DNA from: an uncultured Oscillospiraceae bacterium
GTDB lineage: Bacteria; Bacillota; Clostridia; Oscillospirales; Oscillospiraceae
Direction of reading: 5' to 3'
DNA length: 64,000 nucleotides
NCBI GenBank assembly: GCA_934593275.1
Contig: CAKTQE010000003.1
Location: 29,439 to 93,438 of the forward strand
Made by a program: the position numbers and the translations under genes. The notes beneath the pieces were generated by a model. It was not told the DNA's origin, ran no database searches, and was given only the letters and a program-made list of their open reading frames with translations. Positions 7,251 to 31,423 of the stretch are shown here, in pieces (position 1 is the stretch's first letter; each line of letters opens with the position of its first letter).

Positions 7251-7418
7251 TTTGTATTGCGATTTTCGGTTGCTTTCAGGCTCTATAGCAGCCATTAGCC
7301 CATGCGTATGCAGCCTGTGCAGTTTGTGGCATAGGTTGAAAATTGGTTGCAGTGGATCCATTACCGTTTTGCAAAGAGCTTACCCATTCATTTATTGAGA
7401 ATGGAAAGGATGATTGAA

Positions 7419-13345: not shown

Positions 13346-13450
13346 AACGGCATAACTACTATAAATAAATTAGTGCCGTATGCGGTGTGCCTCTAAGTAT
13401 AATTCTAATCAACTTTTATAAAAGACATTATAGTGGGCAGGGAATCTGAA

Positions 13451-14386
13451 ATGAAAAAAATGTCAGCTGAAATAGCGAAAGGTTTGCGTTATATATCAGA
13501 TAAGAATTACAGAACGATTATAAATGCGAATTTGGGATTATATAATCATTTGCCAGATGATAAGTATCTGAAAAAGATTTATCAGGCGCATTTTCATGAG
13601 AACCTGGATTTGAACGATCCCCAAACCTTTAACGAAAAACTCCAATGGCTGAAACTCTACAACCGGAAGCCGGAATACACCATGATGGTGGACAAGTACA
13701 AAGTCCGGGAATACATTGCCCAGACTCTGGGGGAAGAATATTTGATTCCTCTGATTGGGGTATGGGATGACCCGGATGAAATTGATTTTGATACTTTGCC
13801 GGATCAATTTGTCCTGAAATGCAATCACAATTCTGGTTTGGGTATGTGCATATGTAAAGACAAATCTAAGCTGGATATTTCAAAAGTCAAGGCTGAGCTT
13901 CGGAAAGGACTCAAACAGAATTACTACCTGACAGGGAGAGAGTGGCCCTATAAAGATGTGCCTAGAAAAATTATCTGCGAGAAGTATATGCAGGATGATT
14001 CCAAAACGGGCAATCTTGCAGATTATAAGGTGCTTTGTTTTAACGGAGAGCCTCGATTGGTAGAAATACATCGAGGACGATTTGAAGGAGTTCATACCCA
14101 GGATTTTTATAATGAGGATTGGGTAAAAACAGACATTGAGCAGCCGGAATTACCCTTGTCTGATGAAATAATGCAAAGACCGCCATTTGCCGACGAAATG
14201 TTTCGTTTGAGCAGAATTTTGGCGAAAAATATTCCGCACGTACGTGTTGACTGGTATTACACTGGTGGGAGACTGTACTTTGGAGAATTGACATTTTTTG
14301 ACGGTTCTGGTTTTGGAGCGTTTGAAGACAACCAAGACATGGAACTCGGAAGTTGGATGAAACTTCCTGAAAAAAACAACGATTAA
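13451..14386 (+). CDS. TupA-like ATP-grasp protein of polysaccharide loci
   Basis: A 311-residue protein of the ATP-grasp TupA-like family. It has NPQTFNEKLQWLK, the segment DKYKVREYI, the nucleotide-binding FVLKCNHNSGLG, KIICEKYM, DYKVLCFNGEP and a late acidic motif (GELTFFDGSGF). TupA is named from teichuronopeptide synthesis, where an amino-acid polymer is joined to a glycan; relatives are common in capsule clusters. GTG 13433 is possible, but AGGGA lies 7 bases before ATG 13451. It is followed by an amino-acid symporter and a CapA protein, which fits an amino-acid-bearing glycan. Confidence 0.82.
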   Translation: MKKMSAEIAKGLRYISDKNYRTIINANLGLYNHLPDDKYLKKIYQAHFHENLDLNDPQTFNEKLQWLKLYNRKPEYTMMVDKYKVREYIAQTLGEEYLIPLIGVWDDPDEIDFDTLPDQFVLKCNHNSGLGMCICKDKSKLDISKVKAELRKGLKQNYYLTGREWPYKDVPRKIICEKYMQDDSKTGNLADYKVLCFNGEPRLVEIHRGRFEGVHTQDFYNEDWVKTDIEQPELPLSDEIMQRPPFADEMFRLSRILAKNIPHVRVDWYYTGGRLYFGELTFFDGSGFGAFEDNQDMELGSWMKLPEKNND

Positions 14387-14406: not shown

Positions 14407-15756
14407 GTGCGTGTTATAGTAGAAATCAATGATTTCATAAATGGAATTGTCTGGGGAACACCGATGATTATCCTGATATTTGGGACAGGTATTTATTTCA
14501 CCCTCCGGCTTGGGTGTGTTCAATTCCGGCATCCAAAATTCCTAATAAAAGAGACCGTAATTAAGGCGTTTCGGAAAAAGACAGATCAGGCGACTGCCCC
14601 CGGCGAATTAACGAGTTTTCAAGCTGCTATGACATCAGTTGCTGCAATTGTTGGATCTGGAAATATTGCCGGAGTTGCTACTGCTGTGGTTATGGGTGGA
14701 CCGGGGGCTCTAGTGTGGATGATCTTGGCAGCATTCGTCGGAATGGCAACGAAGTTTGCAGAGATTGCCTTGAGTGTTCGTTATCGCAGAATCAACAATG
14801 ATGGTTCTATTAGTGGCGGCACGATGTATTACCTCACGGATGGATTGAACGTCAGATGGCTGGGATGCATTTTTGCAGCTTTAATTATTCCTACAGCCTT
14901 TGTTATTTCCGGAATCGTGGATACAAATACCATAGCACTTACGGTTCAGGACTATTGGGGTGTTTCCACGTTGGCGACTGGCGTGATTCTAGCGATTTGC
15001 GTTGGAGTCGTGATTTTTGGAGGCGTAAAACGTGTTGGGCATGTTTGCGAAGTTGTTTCTCCGTTTATGGGAGGCGCTTACATACTGGCTGGTGTTCTGA
15101 TTCTGATTTTGCACTATCGTCAAATACCGGAAGCGGTTGGCCTTATTTTTAAGGCAGCCATTACTCCCGAAGCTGTTACCGGAGGAGCAGTAGGTTCTGT
15201 GTTCCTTTGCATGCGATACGGAGTTGCTCGTGGAATTTTCTCAAACGAAGCAGGACTGGGAACGGCAGCAATGGCGCACTGTTGCGCAAAAGTGAATGAC
15301 CCTATTGAACAGGCATTGTGGGGGCCGGTAGAAGTTTTTTTGGATACAGTTTTTATCTGCTCAGTTACCGGGATTTCCATTGTATTGTCCGGCCTATGGA
15401 ACAGTGGCATGGATGGTGCTGTTTTAACGATGCGCGCTTTTGAGGCATTGCTTCCGGCAGGTGGTATTATTTGCCTCTTTTCCGTGATCCTTTTTGGATT
15501 TTCTTGCTTGATCAGCTATTACACATACGCAGAACGTGCTTGCGATTTCTTGTTTGGCAAAAAATCTAAGAAGTTCGTTAAATTTCTTTGGATCGTTGCG
15601 ATTTTTATAGGTTCCCAAAGTACACTCGGCTTGGCTTGGGATTTGGCAGATACGTTTGATGGATTGATGATTATTCCAAATCTAATTGGTATTCTGCTAC
15701 TGAGCAATGAGGTTGTATCCTTAAAAAAAGAATACTTCTCAAAACAAGGGCGATAA
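14407..15756 (+). CDS. Sodium:alanine/glycine symporter family transporter (AGCS)
   Basis: A 449-residue polytopic membrane protein with about ten helices and the AGCS signatures: FQAAMTSVAAIVGSGNIAGV near residue 75, GGPGALVWM, KFAEIALSVRYR and GIFSNEAGLGTAAMAH. The family imports alanine or glycine with Na+. An amino-acid importer inside a polysaccharide operon is unusual. It may supply an amino acid for the neighbouring ATP-grasp, CapA and opine genes, or it may be a passenger. The start is GTG 14407 (GGGGAAG upstream); the next in-frame ATG would remove much of the first helix. Confidence 0.93.
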   Translation: MRVIVEINDFINGIVWGTPMIILIFGTGIYFTLRLGCVQFRHPKFLIKETVIKAFRKKTDQATAPGELTSFQAAMTSVAAIVGSGNIAGVATAVVMGGPGALVWMILAAFVGMATKFAEIALSVRYRRINNDGSISGGTMYYLTDGLNVRWLGCIFAALIIPTAFVISGIVDTNTIALTVQDYWGVSTLATGVILAICVGVVIFGGVKRVGHVCEVVSPFMGGAYILAGVLILILHYRQIPEAVGLIFKAAITPEAVTGGAVGSVFLCMRYGVARGIFSNEAGLGTAAMAHCCAKVNDPIEQALWGPVEVFLDTVFICSVTGISIVLSGLWNSGMDGAVLTMRAFEALLPAGGIICLFSVILFGFSCLISYYTYAERACDFLFGKKSKKFVKFLWIVAIFIGSQSTLGLAWDLADTFDGLMIIPNLIGILLLSNEVVSLKKEYFSKQGR

Positions 15757-15775: not shown

Positions 15776-16912
15776 ATGAAAATTTTAATCGGTGCCGATT
15801 TGGTGCCAACGAAGCGTAATATTTCGCTGTTTGAGTCCGGGAATGCGGAGGAACTTCTGGGGAAAGAGCTTGCGGAATGCTTGAATAGTGCGGACTATCG
15901 TATTTTTAACTTGGAGGTGCCCTTGACAGACCGGGAGCAGCCGATTCCCAAATGTGGCCCAAACCTGATCGCACCCACCAAGTGCATTGCGGGTTATCAG
16001 GCCATGGGGGTGGATTTGCTGACCCTGGCCAATAATCATATTTTAGACCAGGATCAGCAAGGCCTGGAGAGTACGGTCAGGACGTTAAATCAGGCCGGAA
16101 TCGCCTACACCGGTGTGGGCAGCACCCCGGAAGATGCGGCGAAGCCCTATCTGTTTACCTGTGACGGCAAAAGAATCGGTGTGTATGCCTGTGCGGAGCA
16201 TGAGTTTTCCATCGTTACAGACCATTCCGCCGGTGCAAATCCCATTGACCTGCTGGAATCCCCGGATCATGTGGCAGAGCTGAAGAAACAGTGCGACTAT
16301 GTAATTGTTCTGTACCACGGCGGTAAGGAACACTATCGTTACCCCTCTCCCAATTTGCAAAAGGTCTGCCGGAAGCTGGTAGAAAAGGGCGCCGACCTGG
16401 TGGTGTGCCAACACAGCCACTGTATCGGTTGCGAGGAAAAGTATCTGCACGGCACCATTGTCTACGGGCAGGGAAATTTCCTGTTTGATGACGATGAAAG
16501 TGAGTTCTGGAAAACAAGTTTAATTATTCTATTGAATGAAAAGAACGATATAACTTATATACCAATTATGAAGAACGCAAATGCTGTTCGACTGGCTAAC
16601 GAAGATGATGCTGCAAAGATTATTTCTGATTTTAATACTAGGAGCGAGAAAATAAGAGATGAAGTGTTTGTTGAGTCGGAATATAGAAAGTTTGCAGATA
16701 AAATGATTGGTAGCTATCTGGGAACGATTACAGGTAAAAGCAGAAATCTTGTGTTTAGAATAAAGAATAAAATAACCCGAGGAAAATGGAGCAAAAAGAT
16801 TGTAGGGAAGATTCCACAAAAAGATAAGTTGGCAATTCTTAATTTCATGATGTGTGAGGCACACATAGAACTCCTAATTGATGCTTTGCAATCGGATACC
16901 TACAGTGGTTGA
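15776..16912 (+). CDS. CapA-family metallophosphatase-like protein
   Basis: A 378-residue protein of the CapA/PgsA family (calcineurin-like fold). Signatures are ADLVP near the start, NLEVPLT, TLANNHILD, VLYHGGKEHY, CQHSHCIG and YGQGNFLFD. In poly-gamma-glutamate producers CapA helps make or export the amino-acid polymer; many capsule loci carry relatives of unknown role. No signal peptide or N-terminal membrane anchor is seen, unlike many CapA proteins, so it may act in the cytoplasm. The last third (from about residue 245) is AT-rich and does not match the family. It lies 19 bases after the symporter gene. Confidence 0.88.
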   Translation: MKILIGADLVPTKRNISLFESGNAEELLGKELAECLNSADYRIFNLEVPLTDREQPIPKCGPNLIAPTKCIAGYQAMGVDLLTLANNHILDQDQQGLESTVRTLNQAGIAYTGVGSTPEDAAKPYLFTCDGKRIGVYACAEHEFSIVTDHSAGANPIDLLESPDHVAELKKQCDYVIVLYHGGKEHYRYPSPNLQKVCRKLVEKGADLVVCQHSHCIGCEEKYLHGTIVYGQGNFLFDDDESEFWKTSLIILLNEKNDITYIPIMKNANAVRLANEDDAAKIISDFNTRSEKIRDEVFVESEYRKFADKMIGSYLGTITGKSRNLVFRIKNKITRGKWSKKIVGKIPQKDKLAILNFMMCEAHIELLIDALQSDTYSG

Positions 16913-19312: not shown

Positions 19313-20764
19313 ATGGCAAAAGACAATACACGGGTTCTATCCAATTTCCTCTGGCGATTCGCTGAACGCTGTGGGGCGCAGGGCGTGTCTTTTGTTGTCT
19401 CTGTGGTTCTGGCCCGGTTGTTGGTACCGGAGGTTTACGGTACCATTGCGCTGGTAACGGTGTTTACTGCCATTCTGAATGTCTTCGTGGACAGCGGTCT
19501 TGGAAGCGCGCTGGTTCAGAAAAAGGATGCGGATGATTTGGATTTTTCGTCTGTGTTCTATTTCAATGTGGCGGTGTGTTGTCTGCTGTATCTGGGGATG
19601 TTTTTTGCGGCTCCTTTTATAGCGGAATTCTACAATCGGCCAGAGCTGACCCCGGTGATTCGGGTTTTGAGTTTGACACTGGTGATTTCCGGTGTCAAAA
19701 ATGTGCAGCAGGCCTATGTTAGCCGGACCATGCAGTTCAAGCGTTTTTTCTTTGCCACATTGGGTGGCACCGTTGGGGCAGCGGGGATCGGTATTGCCAT
19801 GGCTTACTGCGGCTTTGGCGTGTGGGCGTTGGTTATTCAGCAGATTTTTAATGCCACGGTGGATACCGTCATCCTGTGGATCACCGTCAGATGGCGGCCC
19901 AAGCGGATGTTCTCCTGGAAGCGGCTGAAAGGGCTGTTTTCCTATGGTTGGAAGCTGCTGGTTTCCGCTTTGCTGGATACTGTTTATGGAAACCTCCGGC
20001 AACTGATCATCGGCAAAATGTATAGTTCGGCAGATTTGGCTCAGTACAATCGGGGCAGACAGTTTCCGGACGTGATCATTACCAACATCAATTCCTCTAT
20101 TGACAGTGTACTCCTGCCAACCATGGCGAGAGTCCAGGAGGATGCCGCCCAGGTAAAGGGAATGACCCGCCGGGCCATGAAAACCAGCACCTATATTATG
20201 GCCCCTTTGATGATGGGCCTTGCGTTCTGCGCCCAACCGGTGGTTCGCCTTGTTCTGACAGAAAAATGGCTGCCATGTGTACCCTTTATGCAGATATTTT
20301 GCATTACCTATATGTTTTACCCTGTCCATACCGCCAACCTGAATGCAATCAAGGCCATGGGACGCAGTGACCTGTTTTTGAAGCTGGAAATCGTAAAAAA
20401 AGTGGTAGGTCTGGTGCTGCTGCTTTCTACCATGTGGTTTGGCGTCATGGCCATGGCGTACAGCTTGTTGGTCAGTACATTGACTGGAATGATCATCAAC
20501 AGCTGGCCCAACAAGCGATTGCTGCGTTACAGTTACTTCGAGCAAATGAAAGACATCCTCCCGGGCATTCTGCTGGCGGTATTGATGGGCTGCTGCGTTT
20601 ACCCAATCCAGTGGCTGGGCTTGCCGGATATTGTATCACTCCTGCTCCAAGTCCCCCTGGGGGCCTTGATCTACATTGGAGCCTCAGCGGTGCTGCATCT
20701 GGAATCCTATGAGTACTTGATGGATATGATAGTTCCATTTATAAAGAGAATTAAGAAAAAATAA
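19313..20764 (+). CDS. Wzx-type repeat-unit flippase (polysaccharide transporter, MOP superfamily)
   Basis: A 483-residue membrane protein with about 14 hydrophobic helices. It starts TRVLSNFLWRFAERCGAQGV and has the early VVLARLLVPEVYGTIALVTVF motif typical of Wzx/PST proteins. It moves the undecaprenyl-linked repeat unit across the membrane. A Wzx protein implies a Wzx/Wzy-dependent route, with the Wzz, tyrosine kinase and phosphatase encoded at 49505-51895. No polymerase was recognised near it. It starts at the base after the previous stop. Confidence 0.93.
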   Translation: MAKDNTRVLSNFLWRFAERCGAQGVSFVVSVVLARLLVPEVYGTIALVTVFTAILNVFVDSGLGSALVQKKDADDLDFSSVFYFNVAVCCLLYLGMFFAAPFIAEFYNRPELTPVIRVLSLTLVISGVKNVQQAYVSRTMQFKRFFFATLGGTVGAAGIGIAMAYCGFGVWALVIQQIFNATVDTVILWITVRWRPKRMFSWKRLKGLFSYGWKLLVSALLDTVYGNLRQLIIGKMYSSADLAQYNRGRQFPDVIITNINSSIDSVLLPTMARVQEDAAQVKGMTRRAMKTSTYIMAPLMMGLAFCAQPVVRLVLTEKWLPCVPFMQIFCITYMFYPVHTANLNAIKAMGRSDLFLKLEIVKKVVGLVLLLSTMWFGVMAMAYSLLVSTLTGMIINSWPNKRLLRYSYFEQMKDILPGILLAVLMGCCVYPIQWLGLPDIVSLLLQVPLGALIYIGASAVLHLESYEYLMDMIVPFIKRIKKK

Positions 20765-20774
20765 GGTTATAGAT

Positions 20775-21977
20775 ATGAAAAAATTGATGATTTTAGGCGG
20801 TTCTAGATATGCGCTCCCTGTTATTGATGCAGCAAGAAAACTTGGGATTTATACGATTACTGCTGATTTTCTTCCGAACAATATTGCGCACAAGTATTCA
20901 GATGAATATGTAAATGTCAGTATTATTGACAAGGATAAGACGTTAGAAGAGGCAAAAAAACGGAGAATTGATGGAATTATGTCGTTTGCCTGTGATCCAG
21001 GTGTTGTTACCGCTGCATATGTTGCCGACAAAATGGGATTGCCCAATGTTGGCCCATATGACTCTGTGTGCATTCTCCAGAATAAAGGAAAATTCAGACA
21101 GTTTTTGACAGACAACGGATTTAATGTTCCTGTTGCAAAGAGCTATACAAATGTAGATGCTGCACTGACGGATGTTGATATTTTTCATTGGCCTGTAATT
21201 GTAAAACCTACAGATTCAGCAGGAAGCAAGGGCGTTTCCAAGGTGGAGTCACCAGCGAATCTGAAAAGAAGCATTGAATACGCTCTTTCATTCTCACTTT
21301 CCAACGAATTCATCGTTGAGGATTTTATCGAACAAAAGGGATTTTCTTCTGATACCGACAGCTTTTCAATTGATGGGGAATTAAAATTTATTTCCTTTAA
21401 TTGTCAGAGATTTGATTCCAATGCCGAAAACCCGTATACACCGGCCGCATATAGCTGGCCATCCTCTCTGAGCAGTGAACATCAGCAGGAATTGAAAAAT
21501 GAAATTCAGCGGCTTATTAAATTACTTGGAATGAAAACGGCAATTTACAATATTGAGACTCGTGAAAGCACAAATGGAAAAGCCTATATTATGGAACTGT
21601 CCCCCCGGGGCGGTGGCAACCGATTGGCTGAGTGCCTTCGTTATGCAACGGGTGTGGATATGATTACCAATATGGTGAAATACTCTGTTGGTTTAGCTAC
21701 TGATGAGATTATGCAAGAGAATTATAATGGGTGCTGGTGCGAAATCATTCTGCATAGTGACAAGCCGGGAACATTCAAAGAACTATGGATAGCAGATGAA
21801 ATCAAAGAGAATGTTGCGGAGCATGATTTGTGGATACCCAAAGGGACTAAAGTAGGTGGTTTTAGTGCTGCCAACGAGGCTATTGGCACATTAATTTTGA
21901 AAATGGAATCGCAGGAAGATGTTGAACAGGTGCTTTCGAATCAGGAGAGGTACGTGAAGGTTTTGGTGAGCGAATGA
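20775..21977 (+). CDS. ATP-grasp carboxylate-amine ligase-like protein (first of two)
   Basis: A 400-residue protein. It has an N-terminal Rossmann-like pre-ATP-grasp domain (MILGGSRYALPVIDAARKLG), a central ATP-grasp with the lid and P-loop-like segment WPVIVKPTDSAGSKGVSKV (about 140-160), and the Mg-binding end IMELSPRGGGNRLAE. The fold joins a carboxylate to an amine or other nucleophile through an acyl phosphate. The substrate is not known. It begins the AT-rich block 20775-27230. The next gene overlaps it by 4 bases (ATGA at 21974), and a second ATP-grasp protein follows, giving a ligase/PLP-protein/ligase arrangement. Confidence 0.87.
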   Translation: MKKLMILGGSRYALPVIDAARKLGIYTITADFLPNNIAHKYSDEYVNVSIIDKDKTLEEAKKRRIDGIMSFACDPGVVTAAYVADKMGLPNVGPYDSVCILQNKGKFRQFLTDNGFNVPVAKSYTNVDAALTDVDIFHWPVIVKPTDSAGSKGVSKVESPANLKRSIEYALSFSLSNEFIVEDFIEQKGFSSDTDSFSIDGELKFISFNCQRFDSNAENPYTPAAYSWPSSLSSEHQQELKNEIQRLIKLLGMKTAIYNIETRESTNGKAYIMELSPRGGGNRLAECLRYATGVDMITNMVKYSVGLATDEIMQENYNGCWCEIILHSDKPGTFKELWIADEIKENVAEHDLWIPKGTKVGGFSAANEAIGTLILKMESQEDVEQVLSNQERYVKVLVSE

Positions 21978-22966
21978 ACGAAATCGGCGGCTATATCGAG
22001 TTGGATACTTACACAGGCCCTATGCTTCACGATGATGGCATTAAACTGAATTGCGGCAGAAATGCCCTTGCTTATCTGATTGAAGCGAAAAGCATCCAAA
22101 AGATCTGGATGCCCAGGTTTATGTGTGACTCCTGTAATCGGGTGCTGAAAGACCATAATGTTGAAGTGGCGTACTATTCCATTGGCATGGATTTGAGACC
22201 CAGAATTAAAAACTGGGATGGTTGGCTTTACGTGGTCAATTTCTACGGGCAGTTAACCAACGAATACCTGGCATCTCTGGGGGAAAATGTCATCGTGGAC
22301 AATGCCCAGGCATATTTTCAGGAACCCATTCCGGGTATTGATACGCTGTATACATGCCGGAAGTTTTTCGGAGTGGCAGACGGTGCAATTCTCTATACTG
22401 ACAAAACCATACCTGTTTCCCAACAGGACGAATCTTTTGAACGGATGCACTTTCTGCTGGGCCGGTATGAGCGAACCGCATCGGAATTCTATCAGGAATA
22501 TGTGGACAACAACCACTACTTTGAGTCCGAACCGATTAAGAACATGTCCCGCCTGACAGAGAATCTTCTGCACGGGATCGACTATGAATTTGTCCGTAAA
22601 CGCAGAACAGAGAACTTTACATTTTTGCAAAAAAATTTTGGAAACATCAACAAACTGACACTGCAAATACCGGATGGGGCCTTTATGTATCCGCTATATG
22701 TTGACAACGGAGCGCAGATACGAAAAGAACTTCAAAAACAGAAAATCTATATTCCCACATTGTGGCCTGCGGTTTTTGGTATATGCGGGGAGACAGAACT
22801 GGAATATGACATGGCAAAGAATATTCTGCCATTGCCATGTGATCAACGGTATAGTATGGTAGCGATGTTTAATGTTATGAAAGCATTGCTAATTGAATTA
22901 ACGAAAATAGGTGAATTTGATGCTAAAAGGAAAAAAACTTTTGATTTTGGGATGTACGGTGGATGA
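21974..22966 (+). CDS. Short PLP-dependent transferase of the DegT-like superfamily
   Basis: A 330-residue protein with a shortened DegT-like layout: CGRNALAYLIEAKSI near the N-terminus, VVNFYGQ, ENVIVDNAQAYF (the cofactor-ring aspartate in VDNAQ) and CRKFFGVADGAILYT carrying the presumed PLP lysine. It is shorter than the usual roughly 370-400 residues and its C-terminal half is divergent, so it may not be a normal sugar aminotransferase. It sits between two ATP-grasp ligases and overlaps both reading frames, a sign of tightly coupled expression. A role in making or transferring an amino group onto the ligase substrate is inference. Confidence 0.75.
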   Translation: MNEIGGYIELDTYTGPMLHDDGIKLNCGRNALAYLIEAKSIQKIWMPRFMCDSCNRVLKDHNVEVAYYSIGMDLRPRIKNWDGWLYVVNFYGQLTNEYLASLGENVIVDNAQAYFQEPIPGIDTLYTCRKFFGVADGAILYTDKTIPVSQQDESFERMHFLLGRYERTASEFYQEYVDNNHYFESEPIKNMSRLTENLLHGIDYEFVRKRRTENFTFLQKNFGNINKLTLQIPDGAFMYPLYVDNGAQIRKELQKQKIYIPTLWPAVFGICGETELEYDMAKNILPLPCDQRYSMVAMFNVMKALLIELTKIGEFDAKRKKTFDFGMYGG

Positions 22967-24215
22967 GTTCCAAATAATTGATGCTGCAAAAGGGATGGGA
23001 GTGTACACGATTGTAACTGATAACCATATGGATTGGTCACAAGCTCCTGCAAAGTACCGGGCAGACGAAGCATGGGATATTAGTTGGTCAGATGTTACGA
23101 CCTTGAAAGAGAAGGCTTTGCTCAGCGGTGTGGATGGTGTGATGGCTGGGTATAGTGAGCGAAGAATTGAGTGTGCTATCAAATTATGTAGGGAACTAAA
23201 AAAACCATTTTATGTTGATAATGAGGATATACTCTATAAAACATTCAACAAACGGCTTTTTAAGGATATTTGCCGCAGGTATTCTGTACCTGTTACAAAA
23301 GACTATTCTGTAAATAATGCAGGGAATGAAGTAGCTGGGCAAACCATTGAGTTCCCTGTGCTTGTCAAGCCATTAGATAATGGTGGTTCCAGAGGAATTC
23401 GAACCTGTTGGAATACTCAAGAACTGGAGCAGAATGTAAAATATGCACTAACTTTCTCACAGATGGATACGGTCGTTGTTGAGGAGTTAATTCGTGATGC
23501 ACGAGAAGTGGTGGTGTATTATACAATTTCTGATGGCGAAATTGCGCTTTCGGCAATGTGCGATAAATTTGAGAGGAGAACTTCTGAGGGCTTCAATTCT
23601 TTACCTGATGTTTATATGTATCCGTCTTTGCATACGCAAGAGTACATTGAAAAACACAACATAGACGTAATTGCAGCATTGAAAAGTATGGGTATGCGGG
23701 AGGGAAGTGCAAACCTGCAGGGATTTTACAAACCAGGACGTGGATTCATTTTCTTTGAAATGGACTTTAGACCGGGTGGAACGAATACTTTTCATTTCAC
23801 AGACTACTTTTCAGGAGAAAACTATCTGAAGATGCTGATCAATTATTCGCTTACGGGTGAACCAGGGAAAGAGAATATTAAATACGCAGATCCTTTATTT
23901 GCTGGAAAATACGGATGTATATATACACTTCTATCCAAAGATGGCATAATCAGCCAGATGGGGGGAGAAGAAAAAGTTCAAAACAACCCCAATGTACTCT
24001 ATACGTGTTTTTACCATAGCATTGGGACCAAAATTGAGGTAAATGGATCTCAATTTCCTAAAACATTTCGTGCGTATATTGTAGGTGACGATATAGAGAC
24101 AATCAAAAAAACAATTTTGGAAATTCAAGAGACGGTTTACGTCAAAGATGAATTCGGGGATAATATGCTATTTTCACCTTTTAACGTAAATAAGCTGGAT
24201 ATTTACCAGAAATAA
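22920..24215 (+). CDS. ATP-grasp carboxylate-amine ligase-like protein (second of two)
   Basis: A 431-residue protein with the same design as 20775-21977: a first domain KKLLILGCTVDEFQIIDAAKG, the ATP-grasp core FPVLVKPLDNGGSRGIRTC (about 145) and the Mg site FFEMDFRPGGTNTFHF. The two are probably diverged paralogs. ATG 22920 lies 47 bases inside the end of the PLP gene; GTG 22911 is an alternative with a worse ribosome site. A carboxylate substrate and nucleophile cannot be named. The following gene starts 33 bases later after a possible internal -10 box. Confidence 0.85.
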   Translation: MLKGKKLLILGCTVDEFQIIDAAKGMGVYTIVTDNHMDWSQAPAKYRADEAWDISWSDVTTLKEKALLSGVDGVMAGYSERRIECAIKLCRELKKPFYVDNEDILYKTFNKRLFKDICRRYSVPVTKDYSVNNAGNEVAGQTIEFPVLVKPLDNGGSRGIRTCWNTQELEQNVKYALTFSQMDTVVVEELIRDAREVVVYYTISDGEIALSAMCDKFERRTSEGFNSLPDVYMYPSLHTQEYIEKHNIDVIAALKSMGMREGSANLQGFYKPGRGFIFFEMDFRPGGTNTFHFTDYFSGENYLKMLINYSLTGEPGKENIKYADPLFAGKYGCIYTLLSKDGIISQMGGEEKVQNNPNVLYTCFYHSIGTKIEVNGSQFPKTFRAYIVGDDIETIKKTILEIQETVYVKDEFGDNMLFSPFNVNKLDIYQK

Positions 24216-24227
24216 CCGGATAACATA

Positions 24228-24236
24228 TGATATAAT
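24228..24236 (+). promoter_or_regulatory. Possible internal extended -10 box (TGATATAAT)
   Basis: TGATATAAT lies 12 bases before the ATG of the opine dehydrogenase gene with no clear -35. If used, transcripts would be almost leaderless for that gene, so it may be chance in AT-rich DNA. Confidence 0.25.
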
Positions 24237-24248
24237 GAGGGCAATGCG

Positions 24249-25301
24249 ATGATAAACAAAAAAACAGTTTGTATTTGTGGTGGTGGACATCAAGGATTGT
24301 CAATGGCGGCGCATATGGCTCTGAATGGAGTACCTGTTACGATGTGGAACAGATCGGCAAATCATATTCAAGAGATTATTGATACAGGAAAAATCTTTTG
24401 CCAGGGGGTTGTACACGGAATTGCCAAAATAGAGAGGGCTTCTACAGATATGGAGAATGTCATCTCAGACTTTGTGATGGTGACAACACCTAGTAGTGCG
24501 CATAAGGATATTGCTCATCAACTTGCCCCGTTTGTTCATAAGAATATGGTTATTGTACTAAATCCTGGAAGAACATTTGGAGCAATTGAATTCACAAGGA
24601 CCTTGCTGGAATGTGGCGTTAAAGAACTCCCACACATCGCAGAAGCTCAAACGATTGTCTACACATGTAGAAGGGGCGAGAAAAACAATACTACAATCAT
24701 TGCATTAAAACATGGTGTAAAAATTGCAGCAATCAGAGGTAGCGATATTCAATTCATTATGGATCGAATGCCTAAATGTATAAGAGAGTTTTTTACTGTT
24801 AGCAATTCTATCTTGGAGACGTCACTCAGTAATGTTGGAATGGTTCTTCACTGTGCACCGGTAATGATGAATATTGGGTGGATAGAAACACCAAAGGTTG
24901 ATTTCAAGTACTACTATGATGGGATTTCTCCAAGTGTGGGACGATTTCTTGAAAAAATTGATAGGGAAAGGCTCTTAGTGGCACTGGAACTCGGCTGCTC
25001 GGTGGAGTCAGTTACAGAGTGGCTAAGGAGAACATATCAGTGTGATGGTAGTTCGATTTTTGATTGCATTCGGAATAATGATAGTTACAGAGAGATTGAT
25101 GCTCCACCAACTATTCAGTGCAGATACATTTTAGAGGATGTACCTAACGGCCTTGTTCCGATAGAGGCTGTAGGCAGAGAGTTAGGCATAGATACTCCCA
25201 ATATTACTACAATAATTAATTTGGCATCTTCTGTAATGGATTTAGATTTTAGAAAAAACGGAAGAGTCTTTCCTTTGAAATTGATTCAAGAATTTATTTA
25301 A
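24249..25301 (+). CDS. NAD(P)-dependent octopine/nopaline (opine) dehydrogenase family protein
   Basis: A 350-residue protein. The N-terminal nucleotide-binding motif is VCICGGGHQGLSMAAHMALNG, followed by VTTPSSAHKDIA and IVLNPGRTFGAIEF. The all-helical C-terminal domain has SLSNVGMVLHCAPVMMNIG, which matches the octopine/nopaline dehydrogenase domain (the NxxxHP-like region of the family). These enzymes reductively condense an amino acid with a 2-keto acid to give an N-(carboxyalkyl) amino acid. Opine groups such as N-(1-carboxyethyl)lysine are known in some bacterial O-antigens. The neighbouring ligases and B12 protein support an amino-acid modification role. GAGGGCAATGCG precedes the ATG. 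Confidence 0.85.
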   Translation: MINKKTVCICGGGHQGLSMAAHMALNGVPVTMWNRSANHIQEIIDTGKIFCQGVVHGIAKIERASTDMENVISDFVMVTTPSSAHKDIAHQLAPFVHKNMVIVLNPGRTFGAIEFTRTLLECGVKELPHIAEAQTIVYTCRRGEKNNTTIIALKHGVKIAAIRGSDIQFIMDRMPKCIREFFTVSNSILETSLSNVGMVLHCAPVMMNIGWIETPKVDFKYYYDGISPSVGRFLEKIDRERLLVALELGCSVESVTEWLRRTYQCDGSSIFDCIRNNDSYREIDAPPTIQCRYILEDVPNGLVPIEAVGRELGIDTPNITTIINLASSVMDLDFRKNGRVFPLKLIQEFI

Positions 25302-25322
25302 CTTAATTCAGAAGTGGGAAAA

Positions 25323-27230
25323 ATGAATATTGAAAAAAATGAGACATTCGGATTAATAAAGACTATTTTGGATGCACATACAATGGGGGTCCATGCAGCA
25401 GCAGCACTACTGAGAGATTGCGGATACCAAGTATTGATAGCACCACCTGAAATAGAAGATGCTTTAGACAAAGTATCCGCAAGAAGCAGCCAAAGACTAA
25501 TCAAAAATTGGCTATTAACGAACAATGTGAAACATATTGGTGTATCTTATCGTTTGGATCCTGATGATGCGGTAAACATCGTGGGTCGGCTGGTTGAAAT
25601 GCTAAAAAGAGATCGCCTTTTTGAGGTACCCAATGCGGCTGTGAAAAGCGTATTTTTTGCGGGTCTAGCACCTGCGTGCAAGCAAATCGATAAAGATTAC
25701 ATGGGGCTAATTAAAACATTCTGCGGCGGTGAGTCTGCAGAAGAAACCCTGCGTAATATGGGAGTCCCGGAGAAAGACATTCCACACCATATCATTGAGG
25801 GCTGTAAATATGACAAAGAACTTCTGAAATTTGGGCAGGAGATCATTTGTGATGGTACATATCCATCATTGAAGCCACTTACAAGAAAAAAATATCCTGC
25901 ATTTGGAACTAAAAAAGATACGTTAGAGGCTCGGCTTGCACACAATTTTGAAGGCGGTTTTCAGCCTCTTATTCGTGCACATTCTGGTCCTTATTCTGCA
26001 GAGATGACCAGAGTCCAATGCTTGCATGAATACAATGATTGGTGTAAAAAATTAGCAGAGTCTGGATACCTTGACATTCTTTCAATTGGTTCTTCTCAGT
26101 TGTCTCAGTCAAATTTTGGAGAGGAATGGAAAGATAAACCTAATGGTGGTGGAGTGCCTGTTAATTCTGAAAAAGAGTTTCATGATATATGGAAAGCTGC
26201 TCAACCTATGCTTGTGCGAACATATTCAGGAACCAAAAATGTTTTGTACATGGCAGATATGTATGAGCGAACCATTAATATATCGTGGCATGCTCTCTCT
26301 CTATGGTGGTTCAACGAACTGGACGGTCGGGGGCCAAACTCACTTTATCAGAACTTAAAAGAACATATTGATACAATACGACACATAGCGCAAATAGGAA
26401 AACCGGTGGAAACCAATGTTCCGCACCATTTTGCGTTTAGAGGTTGTGACGATGTAACATATATTGTGTCTGCATTTTTGTCTGCAAAAATGGCAAAGAT
26501 GTGCGGAGTGAGGACATTCATCCTTCAAAATATGTTAAACACACCACGAAGTACGTGGGGAATTCAAGATTTAGCAAAATCTCGTGCAATGCTACATCTT
26601 GTGAAGTCATTGGAAAATGACAACTTTAGGGTTATATTGCAGACTCGTGCAGGACTGGACTATTTCAAACCAGATATCGATGAAGCAAAAGTTCAGCTTG
26701 CAGCAGTAACAGCTATGATGGATGATATAGATCCGGAAAATATTTATAGTCCTGAAATCATTCATGTAGTAAGTTATAGCGAGGCACTATTTTTGGCTAC
26801 ACCTGAAATAATCGATGATAGTATCAAAATAACCAGAAAGGCACTGCAAGAATATCGAAAGAAAAAACAAGCTGGAGAAACGCCAAATGTTAATACACCG
26901 GATATTCAGAACAGAACAGTTCGATTGATGGATTCCGCAAAAAAAATCATCGCTGCCATGGAACAAAGCATTCCCAATTTGTATTCTCCAGAGGGGTTGT
27001 ATGTAGCTTTCATTGCAGGTTGGTTGCCTGTTCCAGAATTATGGTCCAACTCAAATGAATTTCTTCACGCCAAATGTTGGGAAACAAAGGTGCATAATGG
27101 AGGGATTGAACTTGTAGACCATGGCCTCTTGATGACAACAGAATCCAGAATCAGTCGGTGCCTCGATTTTATGAAGGATGCCGAAGATATGTTATGTCAA
27201 AAATATCTAGATAAACAAAAAGGAATTTGA
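25323..27230 (+). CDS. Cobalamin-dependent mutase-like protein (N-terminal B12-binding domain + TIM-barrel domain)
   Basis: A 635-residue protein. The N-terminal domain has the cobalamin signature DxHxxG as D17-A-H19-T-M-G22 (DAHTMGVHAAAALL). A degenerate SxL-like S75-Y-R-L and an AG at 113-114 stand in place of GG. From about residue 190 a barrel-like region resembles the large subunit of glutamate/methylaspartate mutase type proteins (LDILSIGSSQLSQSNFGEEW, NISWHALSLWWFNELDGRGP, NVPHHFAFRGCDDVTY). Such enzymes use adenosylcobalamin for carbon-skeleton or amino-group rearrangements. The exact reaction is unknown. ATG 25323 is preferred over GTG 25314. It starts 21 bases after the opine dehydrogenase, and the DegT gene follows after one base. 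Confidence 0.8.
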   Translation: MNIEKNETFGLIKTILDAHTMGVHAAAALLRDCGYQVLIAPPEIEDALDKVSARSSQRLIKNWLLTNNVKHIGVSYRLDPDDAVNIVGRLVEMLKRDRLFEVPNAAVKSVFFAGLAPACKQIDKDYMGLIKTFCGGESAEETLRNMGVPEKDIPHHIIEGCKYDKELLKFGQEIICDGTYPSLKPLTRKKYPAFGTKKDTLEARLAHNFEGGFQPLIRAHSGPYSAEMTRVQCLHEYNDWCKKLAESGYLDILSIGSSQLSQSNFGEEWKDKPNGGGVPVNSEKEFHDIWKAAQPMLVRTYSGTKNVLYMADMYERTINISWHALSLWWFNELDGRGPNSLYQNLKEHIDTIRHIAQIGKPVETNVPHHFAFRGCDDVTYIVSAFLSAKMAKMCGVRTFILQNMLNTPRSTWGIQDLAKSRAMLHLVKSLENDNFRVILQTRAGLDYFKPDIDEAKVQLAAVTAMMDDIDPENIYSPEIIHVVSYSEALFLATPEIIDDSIKITRKALQEYRKKKQAGETPNVNTPDIQNRTVRLMDSAKKIIAAMEQSIPNLYSPEGLYVAFIAGWLPVPELWSNSNEFLHAKCWETKVHNGGIELVDHGLLMTTESRISRCLDFMKDAEDMLCQKYLDKQKGI

Positions 27231-27231
27231 T

Positions 27232-28338
27232 ATGCAGAGAATCCTCGTCACCCGTTCCTCCATGCCCACATTTGAGGAATACTGCGGTGAAATCAAAGAA
27301 CTGTGGGATACCCACTGGCTGACGAATATGGGGGTCAAGCACCGGCAGCTACAGGAAGAACTGGAAACATACTTGGATGTTCCCCATGTGACGCTTTATA
27401 CCAATGGCCATTTGGCTTTGGAAAATGCCATCGGGGCGATGAATCTTCCGGAGGGCGGCGAGGTGATCACCACCCCCTTTACCTTTGCGTCTACGACCCA
27501 CGCCATTGTACGCAACGGACTGGTGCCGGTGTTTTGTGACGTAAATGACAGGGATTACACCATGGATGTGTCCAAAATCGAAAGCCTCATTACAGACCGT
27601 ACAGTGGCCATCGTCCCTGTGCATGTCTATGGCAATCTCTGCGACGTGGAGGCCATTGAGCGGATCGCCGGAAAGTATGGCCTGAAAGTGGTTTATGATG
27701 CGGCTCATGCTTTCGGGGTGCGATATAAGGGCGTTTCCTCCGCTTGCTTTGGGGATGCCTCTATGTATAGCTTCCATGCCACCAAGGTGTTCAACACCAT
27801 TGAGGGCGGTGCGGTATGCTTCCGCGATGACAGCATGGTGCAGATTCTAAATGACATGAAGAATTTCGGCATCCACGGCCCGGAGTCTGTGGAGTATATC
27901 GGCGGAAATGCCAAAATGAATGAATTTCAGGCTGCTATGGGCATTTGCAATCTGCGGCATTTGGATGAAGAAATCACCAAACGAAAAAAGGTCGTAGAGC
28001 GTTACCGTCAACGCCTGGAAGGGGTAGAGGGGATTCATCTCACGGCGGCTCAGGAGCATGTTGAACCCAACTATGCCTATTTCCCCGTGGTATTTGACGG
28101 TTACAAGTATACCCGCAATGAGATTTTTGCAATGCTTCAAGAGCAGAACATTACCGCCCGGAAGTATTTTTTCCCCTTGACCAACAGCTTTGAGTGCTAT
28201 CGGCACTATCCCACCGCCGGCGTGGAAAAAACCCCGGTTGCCCAGCACCTGGCTCTGCGTGTGCTGACACTGCCGCTGTACGCTGACCTGGCACCGGAAG
28301 ATGTGGACCGAATCTGCGATATTATTTTGGGAGTGTAA
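27232..28338 (+). CDS. DegT/DnrJ/EryC1/StrS nucleotide-sugar aminotransferase
   Basis: A 368-residue sugar aminotransferase with HWLTNMGVKHRQLQEELETYL, TPFTFASTTHAIV, VPVHVYGN, VYDAAHAFG (the cofactor aspartate) and the PLP lysine in SFHATKVFNTIEGGA. Together with RmlA and RmlB encoded just downstream it probably makes a dTDP-amino-dideoxyhexose from dTDP-4-keto-6-deoxyglucose (VioA/WecE/FdtB-like). The position attacked, C3 or C4, is not certain. GC content returns to that of the host here, so the boundary of the AT-rich block is between 27230 and 27232. Confidence 0.92.
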   Translation: MQRILVTRSSMPTFEEYCGEIKELWDTHWLTNMGVKHRQLQEELETYLDVPHVTLYTNGHLALENAIGAMNLPEGGEVITTPFTFASTTHAIVRNGLVPVFCDVNDRDYTMDVSKIESLITDRTVAIVPVHVYGNLCDVEAIERIAGKYGLKVVYDAAHAFGVRYKGVSSACFGDASMYSFHATKVFNTIEGGAVCFRDDSMVQILNDMKNFGIHGPESVEYIGGNAKMNEFQAAMGICNLRHLDEEITKRKKVVERYRQRLEGVEGIHLTAAQEHVEPNYAYFPVVFDGYKYTRNEIFAMLQEQNITARKYFFPLTNSFECYRHYPTAGVEKTPVAQHLALRVLTLPLYADLAPEDVDRICDIILGV

Positions 28339-28343
28339 CCGAT

Positions 28344-29435
28344 GTGAATACAAATATGCAGAAAATGTGCGTAGGGGGGGTACAGAAGCCGCCGCGTGAT
28401 TCCAACGTAGAACTTTACAGAATTATTGTCATGCTTGCAATCGTAGCCCACCATTATGTGGTAAATTCCGGACTTATGAATATAATTGATCAAAATGGTG
28501 CTACGAGACCCGCATCCATTTTCTTATTGTTGTTTGGTTGCTGGGGAAAAATTGGTATCAATTGCTTTGTATTGATCACGGGCTACTTTATGTGCAAGTC
28601 CAACATCACCCTGAAAAAATTCCTGAGACTGTTCCTGGAATGGATGTTCTATAAGTATGTCATCTGGGCCATTTTCATTCTTTGCGGATACCGGTTTTCT
28701 TCTGTGAAACAGGCACTTAAAAGTCTGCTTCCCATTACATCGCTGACAGATGGGTTTACCAGCTGCTATATTGTCTTTTTCCTGTTTATTCCGTTCCTGA
28801 ACATCCTGATTCAGGGAATGAACCAGCGGCAGCACCAGCTATTGCTGCTGCTTTCCCTTGGTGTGTTTTCCGTTCTTGGGTCAGTTATCCCGGTAGGTTC
28901 CAGCTATGTCATTTGGTTTGTGAATCTGTATTTTTTGGCTGCGTACATTCGGTTGTATCCCGTTGCACTGTTCGAAAACACACGCTTTTGGGGATGGATG
29001 TCTTTGCTTGCGGTTGTCTGCGCCTATGGGAGCGTTATTTTGATGGCGTGGGTGAAAGACTGCTTTGGATACTCGGGTTACTACTATTTCCTGGCCGATT
29101 CCAATAAAATCACAGCTCTGGCCGCGGCTCTTTCTTTCTTCCTGTTTTTTAAAAATTGGAAGATAAAATACAACAGGGCGATCAATACGGTTGCTTCGTC
29201 AACTTTTGGAGTTCTCTGCATCCATGCACACAGTGATGCAATGCGAACTTGGTTGTGGGAAGAACTGTGCAGGAATACAGAAGTATATGATTCCGCGTTT
29301 TTAGTGTTACATGCGTTCAGTGTTGTGATCGCTGTGTATCTGGTATGTACCGTCATTGACCAACTTCGTATAAAATTCATTGAAGAGAGATTCTTCCAAT
29401 TCTACGACCGGAAGATTTCTTCCAAACTGCTATAA
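28344..29435 (+). CDS. Acyltransferase family 3 membrane O-/N-acyltransferase
   Basis: A 363-residue membrane protein with about ten helices. It begins with the family hallmark NVELYRIIVMLAIVAHHYVV (charged residues in the first helix and a conserved His) and has GINCFVLITGYFMC and a late CIHAHSDAMR. These enzymes move acetyl or other acyl groups to sugars across the membrane. It could acylate the amino sugar made by the DegT/Rml enzymes or the finished repeat unit. The start is GTG 28344 with GGGAG about 9 bases upstream; ATG 28356 is the alternative. Confidence 0.88.
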   Translation: MNTNMQKMCVGGVQKPPRDSNVELYRIIVMLAIVAHHYVVNSGLMNIIDQNGATRPASIFLLLFGCWGKIGINCFVLITGYFMCKSNITLKKFLRLFLEWMFYKYVIWAIFILCGYRFSSVKQALKSLLPITSLTDGFTSCYIVFFLFIPFLNILIQGMNQRQHQLLLLLSLGVFSVLGSVIPVGSSYVIWFVNLYFLAAYIRLYPVALFENTRFWGWMSLLAVVCAYGSVILMAWVKDCFGYSGYYYFLADSNKITALAAALSFFLFFKNWKIKYNRAINTVASSTFGVLCIHAHSDAMRTWLWEELCRNTEVYDSAFLVLHAFSVVIAVYLVCTVIDQLRIKFIEERFFQFYDRKISSKLL

Positions 29436-29453: not shown

Positions 29454-30338
29454 ATGAAGGGAATCATCCTTGCCGGAGGTGCCGGTACTAGACTATATCC
29501 GCTGACCATGGTGACCAGCAAACAGTTGCTGCCGGTCTACGACAAGCCCATGATCTACTATCCCCTTTCTACCTTGATGCTGGCACGGATCCGGGACATT
29601 CTGCTGATTTCCACCCCTGAGGATACCCCGCGGTTTCAGGCACTGCTGGGGGACGGAAGCCAATTCGGCATTCACCTGAGCTATGCGGTACAGCCCAGCC
29701 CGGATGGGTTGGCCCAAGCGTTTCTGATTGGTGAAGAATTCATCGGAGACGATGCCTGTGCCATGATTCTGGGGGACAATATCTTTTACGGCAACGGCCT
29801 GGGCAGCAAGCTCATGTCTGCCAGAACACATGCGGAAGCGGGCTGTGCCTCTGTTTTCAGCTATTACGTGGATGACCCGGAGCGTTTTGGAGTCGTGGAG
29901 TTTGACAAGGATGGAAAGGTTCTGAGCCTGGAAGAAAAACCTCAGAATCCCAAAAGCAACTATGCGGCTACGGGCCTATATTTTTATCCCAGCGGAGTCA
30001 GTAAAATGGCTGCCCAGGTGCGGCCCAGCAGCCGGGGAGAGTTGGAAATCACAACACTGAATGAAATGTTCCTGCACCAAGGAAAACTGAATTGCGAATT
30101 ACTAGGCCGCGGCTTTGCCTGGATGGACACCGGCACTATAGAAAGTCTGCTGAATGCAGGGGAATTTGTACATATGATCGAGCGAAACCAAGGCATGAAA
30201 ATCTCCGCGCCTGAGGAGATCGGCTACCGCTTCAAATGGATCACCCGGGAGCAATTGCTGGAGAGTGCCATCCGTTACGGCAAGAGCAGCTACGGCAAGC
30301 ACCTGAAATCCGTTGCCGAAGATAGAATTTTGCGCTGA
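29454..30338 (+). CDS. rmlA: Glucose-1-phosphate thymidylyltransferase
   Basis: A 294-residue enzyme of normal length that makes dTDP-glucose from dTTP and glucose-1-phosphate. Signatures are [13 protein letters not shown] at the N-terminus, [42 protein letters not shown] and [25 protein letters not shown] precedes the ATG. It is followed after 11 bases by rmlB. No rmlC or rmlD is present, so dTDP-rhamnose is not made from this locus; the 4-keto sugar is probably taken by the aminotransferase at 27232. Confidence 0.97.
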
Positions 30339-30349
30339 GAGGTAAAATT

Positions 30350-31423
30350 GTGAAAACATATCTGATCACCGGCTGCGCCGGATTTATCGGCTCCAATTTC
30401 GTTTATTATATGCTGAACAAGTATCAGGATATTTTGCTTGTCAACCTGGACAAGCTGACCTATGCCGGGAACCTGGAAAACCTGAAAGGCGTGGAGGGGG
30501 ATCCTCGCCACATTTTCGTCCAGGGTGACATCTGCGACAGGAAATTGGTGGCATCTTTGTTTGATAAATATGACTTCGACTACGTCATCAACTTTGCGGC
30601 GGAAAGTCATGTAGACCGGTCCATTGCTAACCCGGAGGTTTTTGTCCAGACCAATGTTATGGGAACCGTGAACCTCTTGCAGCGGGCAAAGGAAGCCTGG
30701 TACGATGCCGAGGCCAAGACCTGGAAAGCGGGGAAAAAGTATCTTCAGGTTTCTACGGACGAGGTATACGGTGCCTTGGGTGCGGAGGGATTCTTTATGG
30801 AAACCACGCCCCTCAGCCCCCACAGCCCCTATTCCTCCTCCAAGGCCAGTGCGGATATGTTCGTTATGGCGTTCCATGATACCTACGGTATGCCCATTAA
30901 TATTACCCGCTGCTCCAATAACTACGGTCCCTACCAGTTCCCGGAGAAGCTGATCCCCCTGATGATCAACAATGTGAAGCACCACAAGCAGCTCCCCGTC
31001 TACGGCGACGGTATGCAGGTTCGGGACTGGCTGTATGTAGAAGACCACTGTAAGGCCATTGATATGGTGGCCAACGGCGGCACAATCGGAGAGGTTTACA
31101 ATGTGGGCGGCCACAATGAGCGGCCAAACATCTTTATCGTGAAAACCATTATTCGACAACTCCACCACAGACTTCATGACGAGGGTATTTCCGAAGACCT
31201 CATCAAGCACGTAGAAGACCGCCTGGGCCACGACCGCCGCTACGGCATCGACCCTACCAAAATCAAAAACGACCTGGGCTGGTATCCTGAGACCTCCTTT
31301 GAAAAGGGCATTGTTCTGACCATCGATTGGTATCTGGAACACCAGGAATGGATGAACAATGTCACCTCCGGTGCCTATCAGAAGTATTACGAGGATATGT
31401 ACGCCGCCAAGGCTGAGATGTAA
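30350..31423 (+). CDS. rmlB: dTDP-glucose 4,6-dehydratase
   Basis: A 357-residue SDR enzyme that converts dTDP-glucose to dTDP-4-keto-6-deoxyglucose. It shows the NAD motif GCAGFIGSNFV, the active-site TDEVYG, the YxxxK pair in YSSSKASADMF, NITRCSNNYGPYQFPEKLIP and RDWLYVEDHCKAI. GTG at 30350 begins the normal family N-terminus, with GAGAGGT upstream. It is the last gene of the first polysaccharide locus. Confidence 0.97.
   Translation: MKTYLITGCAGFIGSNFVYYMLNKYQDILLVNLDKLTYAGNLENLKGVEGDPRHIFVQGDICDRKLVASLFDKYDFDYVINFAAESHVDRSIANPEVFVQTNVMGTVNLLQRAKEAWYDAEAKTWKAGKKYLQVSTDEVYGALGAEGFFMETTPLSPHSPYSSSKASADMFVMAFHDTYGMPINITRCSNNYGPYQFPEKLIPLMINNVKHHKQLPVYGDGMQVRDWLYVEDHCKAIDMVANGGTIGEVYNVGGHNERPNIFIVKTIIRQLHHRLHDEGISEDLIKHVEDRLGHDRRYGIDPTKIKNDLGWYPETSFEKGIVLTIDWYLEHQEWMNNVTSGAYQKYYEDMYAAKAEM

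Follow-up and report, generated by a model that had tools for sequence, protein, structure and literature searches.

We analyzed a 64,000-nucleotide stretch of DNA, hereafter the window, from an uncultured Oscillospiraceae bacterium (GenBank assembly GCA_934593275.1, contig CAKTQE010000003.1, positions 29,439 to 93,438 of the forward strand), and found in it an uninterrupted run of six plus-strand open reading frames (ORFs), A-B-C-D-E-F, at the position given by a preliminary description. Gene A (20775-21977) encodes an ATP-grasp protein of 400 amino acids (aa), B (21974-22966) a short, putative pyridoxal phosphate (PLP)-type protein (330 aa), C (22911-24215) a second ATP-grasp protein (434 aa), D (24249-25301) an opine dehydrogenase (350 aa), E (25314-27230) a B12-mutase-like protein of 638 aa, or of 635 aa from the ATG at 25323, and F (27232-28338) a DegT sugar aminotransferase (368 aa), which starts just past 27230, the last position covered by the preliminary description. 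Six consecutive genes with gaps of under 35 bases or overlaps had been reported there, and all six ORFs are present in that arrangement: the spacings are -4 nucleotides (nt) for A-B, 33 for C-D, 12 for D-E and 1 for E-F, a range of -4 to 33 nt, and B-C has a spacing of -56 nt, an overlap that falls to 47 nt with the alternative ATG at 22920 as the start of C. As described below, D and E form a widespread module in which a new B12-mutase-like family is paired with an opine dehydrogenase of the acidic type. The gene cluster observation is thus confirmed, and it is broader than first described.

An opine dehydrogenase and a B12-mutase-like protein

Protein D matches the opine dehydrogenase family PF02317 with 163 bits (cut-off 30; E-value 5e-48), and its nearest relative of solved structure is ArODH/CENDH (1bg6). 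In the alignment to 1bg6, R108 of D (24570-24572) stands at the place of ArODH A111 and G197 (24837-24839) at that of N198, while H201 (24849-24851) and D297 (25137-25139) form the His-Asp dyad, all on the plus strand. R108, G197, H201, D297 and W258 were invariant in 37 of 37 D rows, including the partners of a sister subfamily of E (Epar, described below). Excerpts of PMC10787698 describe the His-Asp dyad of opine dehydrogenases, report metagenomic opine dehydrogenases (mODHs) that favor L-aspartate or L-glutamate with pyruvate, and show that the A111R/N198G double change shifts the preference of ArODH from L-Phe to L-Asp; the Arg goes with the acidic preference and the Gly gives room for it. 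The earlier assignment of D is therefore borne out by the marks of a true opine dehydrogenase (PF02317 and the H201-D297 dyad). From its R/G residue pair, D is predicted to take an acidic amino acid of the Asp/Glu type, and pyruvate is most likely its keto acid.

Protein E matched no Pfam or NCBIfam family at an E-value of 0.01. A looser scan returned only the B12-binding domain (PF02310) at an E-value of 0.12 (12.6 bits against a cut-off of 32.1), and no solved protein was matched by sequence (best E-value 0.12). The motif DAHTMG at residues 20-25 (25371-25388, plus strand) corresponds to the cobalamin-binding motif DxHxxG, in which H22 and G25 were invariant and D20 was present in at least 90% of 61 rows. 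The structure model of E has a B12-mutase fold: residues 196-615 (25899-27158, plus strand) are predicted to form a barrel domain that matches the barrel of glutamate mutase MutE, and the model also resembles the fold of lysine 5,6-/ornithine 4,5-aminomutase. Fold and motif both agree with the adenosylcobalamin mutase proposed in the preliminary description. Because the profile of E compared with six MutE sequences gave a weak match (E-value 0.02, probability 2%), the relation of E to MutE rests on the fold. PF06368 was not listed for E at a maximum E-value of 10, a search in which HMMER filters drop most weak matches, and it matched a 544-aa relative of E (in locus L082) at 1.4e-4, below the cut-off.

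We aligned 14 E, seven Epar and six MutE sequences with MAFFT, and the correspondences that follow are those of a sequence alignment, not of a superposition. R66, R100 and R149 of MutE, which we take to be its arginine claw in this numbering, align with H223, Q265 and Y304 in E and Epar, and E171 and E330 of MutE align with D337 and E490 of E. The arginines common to E and Epar in the aligned rows are R221, R302, R339, R376 and R445. A classic glutamate mutase was considered for E and rejected, as the arginine claw is replaced. From the aligned residues, E reads as a mutase for a polyanion that bears an amino group, rather than for free glutamate bound in the manner of MutE. The family is large, with 2860 matches among 8000 candidates scored. 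Its sister subfamily Epar (530-560 aa; L082:373-2007 and loci L100-L107) is likewise paired with an opine dehydrogenase.

Occurrence of the D-E pair across genomes

Relatives of E were sought in one genome per species, 188 were found, and the best 80 loci were read. In 66 of these 80 loci D is no more than two genes away from E; it is the direct neighbor in 63, and the gap is 60 nt or less in 62. In 35 of the 66, D and E are packed tightly enough to overlap, an upper estimate since each ORF was taken from its first possible start codon. Among the 14 loci with no D nearby, four (L013, L038, L050, L052) end at or beside E, and a D relative is encoded elsewhere in nine of the other ten genomes, that is, in all but the genome of L080. 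Going by record titles, the D-E loci occur in Bacillota, Bacteroidota, Verrucomicrobiota, Thermotogota and a deltaproteobacterium. Among the carriers are the culturable Acidaminobacter hydrogenoformans DSM 2784 (L021) and, with D-E in a glycan-type locus, the isolates ATCC 27753 (L011) and Selenomonas bovis DSM 23594 (L014). On a tree of E, which omits two of the 80 loci with a short E (L013 and L058), the nearest relatives of the window E are mostly clostridial. A set of 291 genomes of one clostridial class held 17 carriers, five of the E type and 12 of Epar. In eight Epar loci (seven from these 12 and one from another genome) D is adjacent to Epar, or one gene off in L102, where an ATP-grasp gene sits between the two. 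The tree distances of D and E were correlated with r of 0.80 over 66 rows (65 loci and the window), a value that none of 2000 permutations reached and to which shared ancestry contributes; with Epar added, the correlation was less good (r of 0.46, 74 rows).

We then took a census of PF02317 genes in 341 genomes of the clostridial class, using 68 of 73 listed rows (65 and 3) and omitting two below the cut-off, two fragments and one with internal stops. A gene was counted as near E if an E or Epar match lay anywhere within the fetched stretch. The R/G pair was present in 23 genes, 19 of which were near E or Epar, and absent from 45, none of which was (Fisher p = 2.6e-13, with relatives that are not independent). 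In the main batch, 15 of 16 near-E genes lay within 175 nt of E or Epar, and that of L102 at 1196 nt. A second class (155 genomes, 12 PF02317 genes) had E or Epar in the locus for six of nine R/G genes and for none of the three others. One genome in each class (G001 and G006, respectively) had been picked as an E carrier, and for some census genes, which sit near the end of their contig, the absence of E is less certain. The census leads us to reject clustering of D and E by chance; the D-E distance in the 66 loci and the gene order kept in three other loci (see below) also place the clustering beyond chance.

The four clostridial R/G genes with no E (L219:2442-3512, L221:2938-4008, L225:2501-3574 and L226:2520-3617) all have a TRAP-type (DctM) permease nearby, and three, all but that of L226, also have a gene of the ornithine-cyclodeaminase family. 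These neighbors fit with uptake and breakdown of acidic opines, and the loci are candidate operons for this purpose. L174, a locus of the second class, has the same appearance. Such loci are consistent with a D-E pair that serves amino-acid fermenters chiefly as a catabolic or redox module, consuming or forming acidic opines, with the glycan loci as a side branch. This is a tentative alternative that we consider somewhat unlikely. It agrees with the amino-acid ABC transporter genes near E in L024, the flavin amine oxidase beside E in L042 and the AGCS symporter beside E in L080, and with the 58 of 80 E loci, many of them clostridial, that carry no glycan label. The labels were set by hand, that of L058 on little (three genes), and the 58 loci have different contexts or are too short to tell. 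Only the other 22 were labeled as glycan loci, so that the glycan purpose proposed in the preliminary description would hold for the window and this part of the loci rather than for the family at large.

What speaks against a mainly catabolic module is, in the first place, the presence of enzymes that point to amide synthesis: 28 of the 80 loci have an ATP-grasp gene no more than five genes from E (in 20 of the 28, two genes 5' of E), D-Ala-D-Ala-ligase-like proteins being part of the 28, and AsnB-like amidotransferases occur near D-E in L047, L059 and L065. In the second place, the E proteins with a glycan label come from two clades, one of gut clostridia and one of Bacteroidales, and from L019 and, within Epar, L102, and at least four changes of label are forced by well-supported branches of the E tree. 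Recruitment to glycans has therefore recurred, and D-E looks like a general metabolic module that was recruited to glycans more than once. In L059 (8100-17188) and L065 (6954-13216), D-E is found together with MscS-type channels and the AsnB-like amidotransferase, which would fit an osmolyte. In some hosts the product might thus be a compatible solute, amidated by the AsnB-like enzyme and released through the MscS channels; we think this improbable, as the arrangement is found in few of the 80 loci and is absent from the window.

The ligase and amino-sugar genes around D-E

Of the six proteins, A and C are ATP-grasp proteins, D belongs to PF02317 and F is of the DegT type; B and E have no Pfam match above the cut-off and are assigned by fold or motif. 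Protein A is of the PF13535 type, with an L-amino-acid ligase C-terminal domain below the cut-off, and has close relatives in L064, L076 and in loci without D-E. Protein B had no Pfam family above the cut-off, PF01041 was not listed for it at a maximum E-value of 10, and no solved structure was matched by its sequence. The model of B has the fold of the sugar aminotransferases (DegT/DnrJ/EryC1), and D109 and K130 were invariant in 19 rows. A short PLP protein, as suggested before, would agree with this fold and with K130; B travels with A rather than with D-E. Protein F has a DegT/DnrJ/EryC1 match, and its best NCBIfam model is DesI (270 bits against a cut-off of 650). Since F is nearest to DesI yet below its cut-off, F likely, but not firmly, aminates a sugar at C-4.

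The run stands in a polysaccharide locus, as previously described, with a sugar transferase, glycosyltransferases, a flippase, RmlA and RmlB as neighbors. Downstream of F follow, on the plus strand, an acyltransferase (28344-29435; PF01757), the glucose-1-phosphate thymidylyltransferase RmlA (29454-30338; TIGR01207) and the dTDP-glucose 4,6-dehydratase RmlB (30350-31423; TIGR01181), the latter two above their equivalog cut-offs; the spacings are 5 nt from F to the acyltransferase, 18 nt to RmlA and 11 nt to RmlB. The direct upstream neighbor of A is a polysaccharide flippase-type gene (19313-20764, plus strand; PF13440, with NCBIfam flippase models below their own cut-offs), and further upstream are the glycosyltransferases, a TupA-type ATP-grasp gene (13433-14386), the sugar transferase and nucleotide-sugar genes. 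The locus also contains a PGA_cap protein (15776-16912) and an AGCS-type amino-acid carrier (14407-15756; TIGR00835, 426 bits). At 7347-9461 the window encodes a 704-aa protein, apparently a fusion, of which the C-terminal part (residues 303-692) is a DegT aminotransferase and the long N-terminal part had no family match at the thresholds used. Rfam at the gathering score gave two tRNAs in the whole window, and in 32 related loci a tRNA, one c-di-GMP-I and two FMN riboswitches; because no cobalamin riboswitch was among these matches, regulation gives no clue to the substrate.

The preliminary description had suggested a search for the same gene order in other genomes. L064 and L076, both from Bacteroidales, keep the order A-B-C-D-E, and L004, a locus cut at its start, keeps B-C-D-E-F, but the unit that recurs is D-E alone. 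A and B also occur apart from D-E: in four clostridial regions (L125-L128), relatives of A and B are flanked by a flippase-type gene on one side and by DegT-RmlA or DegT-RmlA-RmlB on the other, and the fetched stretch contains neither D nor E; in L129 a flippase, A and B are followed by the contig end. The other genes of L125-L128 are acetyltransferases, an aminotransferase and a carboxylate transporter. Because A and B have other partners there, the stretch looks like a changeable cassette for decorating amino sugars, of which D-E with a ligase is one filling. The same four regions would agree with six unrelated decoration genes that share a variable locus by accident. We consider this very unlikely for the run as a whole, given the D-E linkage and the residue census; it is disfavored for D-E, whereas A and B may yet be such independent neighbors of that pair.

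Proposed pathway and comparison with known systems

ATP-grasp and amino-sugar genes accompany D and E, in agreement with the link between ligases and an amino sugar that was suggested before. We propose, with about even confidence, that E and D are a two-step module for an unusual acidic building block, which a ligase would attach as an amide to a dTDP-amino sugar for a surface polysaccharide. E would be a single-chain adenosylcobalamin mutase of the glutamate-mutase fold class that rearranges an acidic amino acid, and D an NAD(P)H-dependent opine dehydrogenase that would condense the product with pyruvate. The result would be an N-(1-carboxyalkyl) derivative of the rearranged acidic amino acid, of the kind of N-(1-carboxyethyl)-3-methylaspartate. 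The ATP-grasp ligase C, and perhaps A too, would activate a carboxyl group and make the amide. For the window, RmlA, RmlB and F point to a dTDP-4-amino-4,6-dideoxyhexose as the sugar whose amino group most likely serves as the acceptor: RmlA and RmlB pass their cut-offs, F is nearest to DesI though below the cut-off of that model, and what separates F from RmlA is an acyltransferase gene rather than one for a ketoisomerase. The decorated sugar would then enter the surface polysaccharide and be flipped. A glycan role of D-E in the window is likely, and we infer the substrates, the order of D and E, the keto acid and the attachment site. A CobA/CobO- or PduO-type adenosyltransferase is encoded in 11 of 14 E-carrying genomes. 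The three genomes with neither type count mildly against the proposed pathway, as two are metagenome assemblies (L064 and L006) and one is an isolate (L011). A search for CbiZ in ten genomes found none and was uninformative.

The order of the two steps may be the reverse, with E acting on the opine itself. D would then condense Glu or Asp with a keto acid, and E would rearrange the skeleton of the resulting tricarboxylic secondary amine. The five arginines invariant in the aligned rows of E and Epar, none of them from the MutE claw, are what a larger polyanionic substrate might need, and the tight packing of D and E points the same way; against it, we know of no mutase for a secondary amine of this kind. 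We regard the D-first order as possible but not favored. A broader proposal built on it, which seems doubtful to us, would make E a so far undescribed kind of adenosylcobalamin mutase, converting the acidic opine from D by skeletal rearrangement into branched opines that are not known to occur naturally. Ligases or amidotransferases would then turn the product of this multi-phylum module into decorations of glycans, osmolytes and other amides.

We found no description of the D-E module in the literature searched, nor of a pathway joining such genes, as the preliminary description had stated. The analysis defines a large orphan enzyme family, with no Pfam or NCBIfam model matched here, and places it in the glutamate-mutase fold class, while a published residue switch allows a prediction of what class of substrate D, its usual partner, would take. 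The recurrence of D-E over several phyla suggests that unusual amino acids, for surface sugars and other uses, are made by a route not yet described. The proposed pathway makes the orphan family testable, and would connect vitamin B12 with the chemistry of bacterial surface glycans.

Glutamate mutase has two subunits, while E is one chain with an N-terminal B12 domain. E and glutamate mutase (methylaspartate mutase; MutE, 1cb7/6h9e) have the barrel fold in common, but in E the claw arginines are replaced in the alignment, PF06368 is not listed and the neighbor is an opine dehydrogenase. Lysine 5,6- and ornithine 4,5-aminomutases, which the model of E resembles in fold, pair with product dehydrogenases in their pathways; these systems use PLP and other dehydrogenase families. 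The mODHs (PMC10787698) and ArODH/CENDH (1bg6) resemble D in PF02317 and the His-Asp dyad, and the mODHs also in the Arg/Gly pair that accompanies L-Asp or L-Glu; the excerpts of PMC10787698 name no gene partner of the mODHs, and the term 'genomic context' occurs zero times in them. Providencia alcalifaciens O35 is reported, in the title of a reference of PMC10609480, to carry a 4-amino-4,6-dideoxyglucose substituted with alanopine. Like the product proposed here, this is an opine on the 4-amino sugar of a surface polysaccharide, but alanopine requires no mutase.

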